This document shows positions 24,561 through 27,043 of a stretch of DNA of 64,000 nucleotides, piece by piece. The position numbers and the translations under genes are program-made. The DNA is taken from the NCBI GenBank assembly GCA_018613055.1, contig JAGGQZ010000014.1:180993-244992 (forward strand), in the 5' to 3' direction. Every line of letters starts with the position of its first letter. Within the stretch, counting starts at the first letter, position 1. The stretch comes from Chryseobacterium sp. ISL-80. GTDB lineage: Bacteria; Bacillota; Bacilli; Bacillales; Cytobacillaceae. Below the pieces are notes generated by a model. That model had not been told where the DNA came from and did no database searches. It saw only the letters and a list, made by a program, of their open reading frames with translations.

Positions 24561-24659
24561 TGCTTTATTTTCATAAAATTCCAAAAATATTTTTCGACAG
24601 CATCCAAACTTTTCATTACGAAGGGATTTCTATATGCTTTTACTAAAGGATGTGATTTG

Positions 24660-25208
24660 ATGAATTATGTACTGGAAACCACCAATACTGAGCAAACCAT
24701 CACATTAGAAGAAGCCATTCAAGGCCGGCCTACAATGGTCGTCTTCGTCCGCCACCTTGGCTGACCGATCTGCCGGGCATATCTCACGCAGTTGCGTGAG
24801 CGAATAAACGAAGTAGAATCAACAGGCTACCAGGTCATTGCCGTAGCCCCGTCCAAAGGAACTTTTATCAAACAGTTCGTTGACCAGTTCGGGCCATTTC
24901 CTTTCCCGATCCTCGGCGATCCTTCAAGAAAAGCGTACCGTGGCATGGGCCACAAGACGATGCCCAAATGGAAGCTGCTTGCGAAGGCCGGCGTAGGATT
25001 CGTAACTGGCCAGGTCAAAGACTTTATCCCTAAAAATGAAAAGCAGAAAGAATTTGTCATGAAATCGATGAAAACACAGGACGTCTACATTCAGGGGGGA
25101 ACATGGCTTTACTCAGCCGAAGGGAAACTCTTGTGGAAGCATATCGATGAATCACCAGAAGACCACGCAAAAATCGATGAAGTATTAAAGCAAATGAAAA
25201 AACGCTGA
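24660..25208 (+). CDS. peroxiredoxin-like protein with in-frame TGA (candidate selenoprotein, Sec35)
   Basis: Read through TGA 24762-24764, this is a 182-residue thioredoxin-fold peroxiredoxin-like protein. Residues 26-38 read MVVFVRHLG, then the TGA codon, then PIC. Homologues have RHLGCxxC, so the TGA replaces the first, peroxidatic-type Cys and leaves a U-x-x-C motif with Cys38. Later parts are intact: VIAVAPSKGTFIKQF, the YIQGGTWLYS strand and LWKHIDESPEDHA. A hairpin 18 bases after the TGA fits bacterial SECIS rules. The ATG at 24660 has AAGGATGTG nine bases upstream. Standard gene calls would begin inside, at 24792. Alternative: a nonsense mutation. Sec machinery genes are not in the window. 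Confidence 0.8.
24762..24800 (+). promoter_or_regulatory. TGA codon plus SECIS-like hairpin
   Basis: CTCACGC (24783-24789) and GCGTGAG (24794-24800) form a perfect 7-bp stem with loop AGTT. The loop G is 27 bases after the TGA. Bacterial SECIS models need an apical loop 16-37 bases away with G in its first two positions; both hold. Confidence 0.75.
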
Positions 25209-25235
25209 TCAGCCTGCTGCGATCAGCGTTTCTTC
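25199..25235. terminator. bidirectional terminator
   Basis: AACGCTGATC stem, ten-base loop, perfect complement. It overlaps the ends of both the selenoprotein candidate and the small minus-strand gene. Confidence 0.8.
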
Positions 25236-26049: not shown

Positions 26050-27043
26050 GGGTTCTGGTGACTATTTTGACAGCTTTTCTCTTTGAGAGCTTAAACCTGT
26101 CATAATCACGGCTTTATCTTGACAGCTTTTGTCCTTGGGACCCCAAACCTGTCATAATCACGGCTTTTTTTTGACAGCTTTTCTCCTTGGGACCCCAAAC
26201 CTGTCTTAATTACGGCTTTATTTTGACAGCTTTTCTCCTTGAGACCCCAAACCTGTCATAATCACGGCTTTTTTTTGACAGCTTTACTCCTTGGGACCTC
26301 AAACCTGTCATAATAACCACTTTATTTTGACAGCTTTTCTGTTTGAGACCTCAAACCTGTCATAATTACGGCTTTTTCTTGACAGCTTTACTGCTTGAGA
26401 CCTCAAACCTGTCATAATAACCGCTTTTTTTTGACAGCTTTTCCCCTTGGGACCCTAAAGCTGTCTTAATTACCGCTTTTTTTTGACAGCTTTTCAACTT
26501 GAGACCCTAAACCTGTCATAATAATTGCTTTATCTTGACAGCTTTACTACTTGAGACCTCAAACCTGTCATAATAACCACTTTATTTTGACAGCTTTTCT
26601 GTTTGAGACCTCAAACCTGTCATAATTACGGCTTTTTCTTGACAGCTTTACTGCTTGAGACCTCAAACCTGTCATAATTACCGCTTTTTCTTGACAGCTT
26701 TTCGCCTTGGGACCCAAAACCTGTCTTAATTACAGATTTATTTTGACAGCTTTTCCCCTCGAGACCTTAAACCTGTCTTAATTACCGCTTTATTTTGACA
26801 GCTTTGCGCTTGATACCCTTAAACCTGTCATAATTACGGCTTTATTTTGACAGCTTTTCTCCTTGGAACCCTAAACCTGTCATAATAACAGCTTTATTTT
26901 GACAGCTTTTCGCTTGCCGCCTCCAAACCTGTCCGAACCTCACCTTACTTCTGACCGCTTTTCTCCTCAAACTCCAGAACTTGTCCGAACTCGCGATTAC
27001 TTCCGCCAGCTTTTCTCCATCCACCCCCGAACCTGCCTAAAAA
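26050..27043. repeat. tandem array of 52-bp hairpin units (about 19 copies)
   Basis: GACAGC recurs at 26069, 26121, 26173 and on in exact 52-base steps to 26901, followed by two worn copies near 26953 and 27005. Each unit has TGACAG and CTGTCA outer arms and an inner stem that appears as TTGGG/CCCAA in some units and TTGAG/CTCAA in others. Units at 26281-26425 and 26541-26685 are nearly identical (offset 260, five units). No coding potential. Confidence 0.9.

Follow-up and report, generated by a model that had tools for sequence, protein, structure and literature searches.

Selenoproteins with a peroxiredoxin (Prx)-like domain (PF00578) and a UxxC or UxxU motif, in which U is selenocysteine (Sec), have been catalogued in PMC9312934 and PMC13188914, together with an AhpC/TSA_2 selenoprotein type carrying UxxS (cd02970/PF13911). 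In the accessible text of these sources, the catalogued Prx-like selenoproteins belong to Deltaproteobacteria, a distant Clostridia member, and marine metagenomes. For Bacillales, the accessible part of PMC1794560 gives three selenoproteins in all, and it names GrdA, glycine reductase selenoprotein A, as the one selenoprotein family for which no cysteine (Cys) homologue was known in 2006. Here, we describe a gene of Chryseobacterium sp. ISL-80 (assigned to Bacilli by GTDB) at positions 24660–25208 of a 64,000-nucleotide stretch of DNA, referred to as the window (part of contig C6 in a 4.75-Mb assembly). The gene probably encodes a Prx-like UxxC selenoprotein and belongs to a Bacilli clade that is set apart from the catalogued proteins by their descriptions. 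Proteins of this kind are already known; what looks new from the sequences compared is the Bacilli clade itself, its Sec-only character, and the loss of its gene rather than conversion to a Cys form. The accessible portion of PMC13188914 mentions neither Bacilli, Bacillales, Bacillota, nor Bacillus, and the literature covered, which included few subscription papers, contained no account of a Bacilli Prx-like family.

As far as the available descriptions go, the window protein resembles the Prx-like thiol:disulfide oxidoreductase selenoproteins (PMC9312934, PMC13188914, and PMC1794560) and Prx-like 1 (PMC2398784) in combining an AhpC/TSA-type domain with a UxxC motif that has Sec in the first position. 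When Sec was entered as C, PF13911 was the best Pfam match (55.6 bits; cut-off 27), and PF00578 also scored above its cut-off (51.4 bits). PF13911 is shared with the AhpC/TSA_2 selenoprotein, which carries UxxS as described, whereas the window protein carries UxxC. The protein does not belong to the classical TxxC/TxxU peroxiredoxins, a type distinguished from UxxC in the accessible text of PMC1914089, because its motif, RHLG-U-P-I-C, has Sec first and Cys last. All 24 members of alignment A3 matched the SelL-related model NF040769 (best E value, 1.6e-34); the window protein scored 97.8 bits, short of the curated cut-off of 120, and no match above the cut-off was found in 141 Bacilli genomes. 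SelL carries UxxU.

The gene comprises 182 codons from an ATG, and its sole internal in-frame stop is the TGA at codon 35 (Table 1); the terminal stop (25206–25208) is also a TGA. This reading agrees with a preliminary description of the locus, which had found the frame open except for this codon. We consider it highly probable (approximately 0.94) that the locus is a genuine selenoprotein gene, in which Sec would be inserted at the UGA through SelB and a downstream hairpin to give a 182-residue Prx-like protein. The selenoprotein interpretation, already proposed in the preliminary description, is supported by the Sec machinery of the genome and by the retention of the TGA across Bacilli orthologues.

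Table 1. Positions of the gene and associated features in the window
Feature	Position	Strand	Basis
Shine-Dalgarno-like segment aaaggatg (putative)	24645..24652	+	reading of the sequence
Predicted gene for 182-amino acid Prx-like selenoprotein, Sec at residue 35	24660..25208	+	frame, orthologues, dN/dS
TGA, Sec codon 35, UxxC	24762..24764	+	frame and orthologue comparison
TGC codon of Cys38, which presumably resolves Sec35	24771..24773	+	24/24 rows of alignment A3
Intragenic SECIS-type hairpin (7-bp stem, AGTT loop)	24783..24800	+	folding, covariation, synonymous-site freeze
Terminator-like inverted repeat over last codons and stop	25196..25235		terminator scan and sequence

The components of the Sec machinery, which the preliminary description had singled out for checking, are all present in the window's genome: tRNA-Sec (60.6 bits, above the Rfam cut-off; ARAGORN anticodon tca), selA (562.9 bits), selB (372.5 bits) and, adjoining selA, a SelD-like frame recognised by eye, whose own Cys position is a TGA (GUGCK). 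Two formate dehydrogenase genes above the family cut-off, each with one TGA in the motif NRT-U-HAPS, were also identified in this genome. In the order sample, tRNA-Sec was detected in 71 of the 71 genomes with a gene match versus 179 of 397 overall (Fisher p 2e-29, uncorrected for kinship). At E <= 1e-15, the gene was found, even in a Cys form, in none of the genomes of this sample that lack a tRNA-Sec match. The tRNA-Sec search across the order was filtered more strictly, so that weak matches may be lost. These data bear on the alternative that the UGA is read through by a near-cognate tRNA, for Trp or another amino acid, without Sec. Bacillus is known to read through UGA at a low level, but all matching genomes of the order sample have tRNA-Sec, the distant relatives inspected have Cys and not Trp at the aligned site, and the spacing and loop G of the downstream hairpin are those expected of a bacterial Sec insertion sequence (SECIS); near-cognate read-through is, in our view, highly improbable. 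As a separate observation, two above-cut-off tRNA-Sec matches were found within single genomes in four cases: G006 (L060 and L061), G241, G262, and G324.

The ratio of non-synonymous to synonymous substitution rates (dN/dS) among 16 genus members is 0.18 before the TGA and 0.066 after it. Both halves are therefore under purifying selection and look as if they are read as protein, and R31, H32, G34, and Cys38 are invariant in all 24 rows of alignment A3. If the UGA were an ordinary stop, a 34-residue peptide would be followed by a second protein starting at TTG 24792. An open reading frame of 138 amino acids from this TTG does exist, and the portion after the TGA is the better conserved of the two; but the first 34 codons are themselves selected as protein and include three of the invariant residues (R31, H32, and G34), the TTG falls in the loop and stem of a hairpin that covaries, and the gene occurs in the order sample only alongside tRNA-Sec. 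Termination at the UGA thus appears highly improbable. Mechanical open reading frame calling nevertheless places the start at this same TTG, and the resulting 138-amino acid product lacks the active site, as the preliminary description had anticipated for automated callers.

The hairpin consists of the stem CTCACGC (24783–24789)/GCGTGAG (24794–24800) and the loop AGTT (24790–24793). Its stem follows the TGA after 18 intervening bases. Its loop G (24791) lies 27 bases after the last TGA base, the distance reported in the preliminary description. It has the features of a bacterial SECIS, namely a loop 16–37 nucleotides (nt) past the UGA, a G within the first two loop bases, and compensatory changes. 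A chance scan of the window for hairpins with a perfect stem of at least 7 bp, a loop of 3–8 nt, a G as the first or second base of the loop, and a loop 16–37 nt after a TGA identified 17 among 2,627 TGA trinucleotides on both strands; 12 TGAs in the window are flanked in frame by stretches of at least 30 and at least 100 open codons, and only that at 24762 has such a hairpin. The 24-nt hairpin core has a folding z score of -3.17, with 1 of 200 shuffles folding as well; by itself, the folding energy carries little weight. Covariation was assessed in 56 distinct sequences, 54 from Bacilli orthologues plus L150 and L151 from other Bacillota, in which 98.7% of the pair cells hold standard pairs, whereas versions of the hairpin slid along the sequence pair at 15–63% only. 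Two-sided changes occur in three of the seven stem pairs (22 cells), a number never reached in 500 shuffles. Column pair 25/36 varies among A-U, G-U, and G-C, and column pair 24/37 among C-G, U-G, and U-A, with G-C in the two non-Bacilli rows; in L138, the C-G of pair 26/35 has become U-A and the protein is altered to M-Q-L-H. The loop is AGTT in 74 of 74 pattern matches, the pattern having demanded U plus L-x-Q-L-R/H and hence omitting L134 (loop AGGT, UxxY) and including L150 and L151, neither of which comes from the class Bacilli. An Rfam scan gave a single match, SR1, which was dismissed (15.5 bits; gathering score, 45).

Synonymous change is suppressed over the hairpin, with a synonymous substitution rate (dS) of 0.18 in codons 42–47 versus 1.04 in codons 48–182, and Leu45 is encoded by TTG in 62 of 62 distinct genes, in which TTG accounts for 14% of the other Leu codons. 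To judge from these frozen sites, the hairpin therefore seems to dictate a part of the protein, L-x-Q-L-R. In an informal comparison, the majority of the distant relatives of this type that carry Sec in other classes have retained a GCAGTTGC-type hairpin top together with Q-L-R or Q-L-H, L163 (R-L-R) being an exception, and Q-L-R is absent from the Cys relatives inspected.

Orthologues were sought in genus, family, order, and class samples, which overlap, and copies that were not read directly were counted by the presence of one in-frame TGA. Among 21 genus genomes, all 16 full-length copies have the TGA; G006 and G007 contain a C-terminal piece only, and the orthologue is absent from G012, G014, and G017. 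Matches were found in 51 of 193 family genomes, 50 with the TGA (the exception, G117, looks broken and is missing the part with the TGA), and in 71 of 397 order genomes, 70 with the TGA (including G363, which is decayed further on), the 71st being the remnant in G007. The class sample contained 12 matching genomes of 398, all with the TGA, and a phylum sample 11 of 398 at E <= 1e-8, all distant except the two of the genus. At the loci read directly, the site is TGA in 101 of 104 and Cys in none. Among the named holders are Mesobacillus selenatarsenatis, M. boroniphilus, M. subterraneus, Cytobacillus firmus, C. oceanisediminis, Pseudalkalibacillus, Pontibacillus, and Alkalihalobacillus, whose loci overlap those of the genus and family samples. 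In a phylogenetic tree, the Bacilli clade has a support of 100/100 and a stem branch of 2.28; the 22 outgroup rows were chosen by hand from loci at hand, and the placement of three of them, on long branches, is unsure. A match in plasmid sequences was limited to a weak one in Thermomicrobium covering 40% of the query; none was obtained in the phage sequences searched, and none of six pattern matches in viral contigs was confirmed.

The conservation of the in-frame TGA in orthologues across Bacilli makes a sequencing error very unlikely. Remnants elsewhere, i.e. the deletions in G006 and G007 and the decayed copies in G363 and G117, might favour such an error or a pseudogene cut short by an early stop codon, but the recurrence of an identical TGA across genera, in numerous genomes sequenced independently, and strong purifying selection leave such an explanation a negligible probability. 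A Cys orthologue was sought without success among the matches of the order sample (E <= 1e-15) and of the class sample (E <= 1e-12), and Cys was seen at the aligned site in distant Prx-like proteins only. The preliminary description had placed the TGA where relatives have the first Cys of RHLGCxxC; this needs correcting, since the close RHxGxxxC relatives have TGA too, and the alternation of TGA with TGC/TGT that had been hoped for among homologues did not appear, the orthologue group having TGA only. The lack of any Cys orthologue in these samples sets the clade apart from Prx-like 1, for which 2,740 Cys homologues are given in the accessible text of PMC2398784. It is a feature shared with GrdA as described in 2006 in PMC1794560. 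In L132 (G006) and L131 (G007), the flanks are 91–93% identical to those of the window locus and the stretch matching window positions 24614–25078 is missing, so that the gene has suffered an internal deletion while tRNA-Sec stayed. In the cases examined, the missing gene had been lost by deletion or decay, and a copy converted to Cys was not found. GrdA is unrelated to the Prx-like protein. Separately, neighbouring pairs of TGA-bearing Prx-like genes with GCAGTTGCG hairpin tops were observed in other Bacillota, namely L150/L159 (G1290) and L151/L160 (G1161).

Several observations weigh against the selenoprotein interpretation or its parts. The folding energy of the hairpin with its flanks is weak, with z scores of -1.39 for 51 nt and -1.62 for 42 nt (16 of 200 shuffles as good in either case). 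Of the 22 double-changed cells, three stem from L150 and L151, outside Bacilli, and 61 of 500 shuffles gave at least as many further pair types as the 6 observed (mean 5.1). The resolving Cys is not universal, because L134 (G509) has Tyr in place of Cys38 (UxxY), while keeping the TGA and the stem with the loop AGGT; a thiol from elsewhere could resolve the Sec in this protein, or the copy could be decaying. No match was obtained in 108 of the 179 tRNA-Sec genomes of the order sample, and the gene is therefore optional; it is likewise dispensable within the genus, where five of the 21 members, each of them with tRNA-Sec, are without an intact copy. Conversely, G010 has the gene, yet neither tRNA-Sec nor an above-cut-off selB was found in its assembly, which is 66% complete. 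Gene neighbours give no clue to the substrate in the window and 14 named loci.

The predicted fold is of the Prx/thioredoxin type and matches human prostaglandin F (PGF) synthase and Bcp-type peroxiredoxins; ResA-like proteins also match, both by sequence profile and by Foldseek. In the model, the fold and the placement of the CxxC pair agree with the PRXL2, or prostamide/PGF synthase, type, and the human enzyme is known as PRXL2B. This enzyme (PDB 9us9/9usa) is the best sequence-profile match (E 4.6e-9) and, for the predicted structure, the best Foldseek match (E 5.8e-10, TM 0.70), and its C44/C47 align with U35/C38; it differs in having Cys for Sec, in being eukaryotic, and in an identity of 16–20% in structural alignments. 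In the proposed mechanism, the hairpin would hold SelB and its Sec-tRNA-Sec at a ribosome that has reached the UGA, Sec would be inserted, and translation would continue to yield the full-length protein. The Sec35 selenolate may then attack a peroxide or disulfide substrate, a Sec35–Cys38 selenenylsulfide would form, and thioredoxin or a similar thiol might reset Sec35. From the sequence, a peroxide, a disulfide, and an endoperoxide are all possible substrates. It is somewhat less likely than not that the main role of the selenoprotein lies outside peroxide reduction, the protein acting as a thiol:disulfide oxidoreductase or, in the manner of PRXL2, as a reductase of special endoperoxides; in favour of such a role are that Sec occupies the first place of a CxxC-type motif, that the human synthase is the best match, and that ResA-like proteins are among the matches.

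In the window, the gene is flanked by two minus-strand genes, one for a GNAT acetyltransferase and one for a TspO/MBR protein. When operon partners were sought in the window and the 14 named loci, no neighbour common to the Mesobacillus- and Cytobacillus-type loci was found among the 14 largest clusters listed. Leaders of several orthologues contain aaaaggagg at the Shine-Dalgarno-like place. A promoter scan detected two candidates against a shuffle mean of 1.6, i.e. no excess over shuffles, and a terminator scan two terminator-like sites against 0.9. The repeat at 25196–25235 was scored on the minus strand in a 16-pair version, and a 5-pair version (25215–25228) on the plus strand. A repeated unit resembling tttgacagcttttctccttgggaccccaaacctgtcataatcacggc is present at 26060–26200 of the window.

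A second TGA-bearing Prx-like gene, with the motif GTW-U-PNCR, was encountered in G009 (L036:1417-2751). Its 444-amino acid product carries an AhpC-TSA domain (108.6 bits) fused to an MCP signalling domain (91 bits) and is a candidate Sec-containing redox chemoreceptor. A Cys form in G666 (L178:1453-2796) has the same make-up; L031–L035 and L037–L039 are frames of 453–461 amino acids with one TGA each, the domain make-up having been read in L036 and L178 only. In 7 of 10 distinct sequences folded, the TGA is followed by a hairpin of seven perfect base pairs and a loop of 3 bases; it differs from that of the window gene, and the protein contains Q-L-N. The fusion gene was not found in the window's genome. 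Fusions of Prx-like selenoproteins are described in the accessible text of PMC2398784 with partners other than MCP, and neither an MCP fusion nor a Sec-containing chemoreceptor was met in the literature search, nor such a fusion in the accessible portion of PMC13188914.

Because the gene caller truncates the protein and the nearest NCBI family model scores below its cut-off, a selenoprotein matched in 71 of 397 genomes of its order can be overlooked. The motif L-x-Q-L-R represents a case in which an RNA signal seemingly constrains a protein sequence. We regard it as nearly an even chance that the clade is a Bacilli-wide, Sec-obligate Prx-like family, in which genomes dispose of the gene by deletion and never exchange its Sec for Cys, and in which the SECIS fixes L-x-Q-L-R. 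If so, it would join a very small number of selenoprotein families that have no Cys counterpart, with a chemistry beyond that of Cys. An orthologue group that has only Sec in the samples, and is lost and not converted, provides a natural test of what selenium does beyond sulfur.
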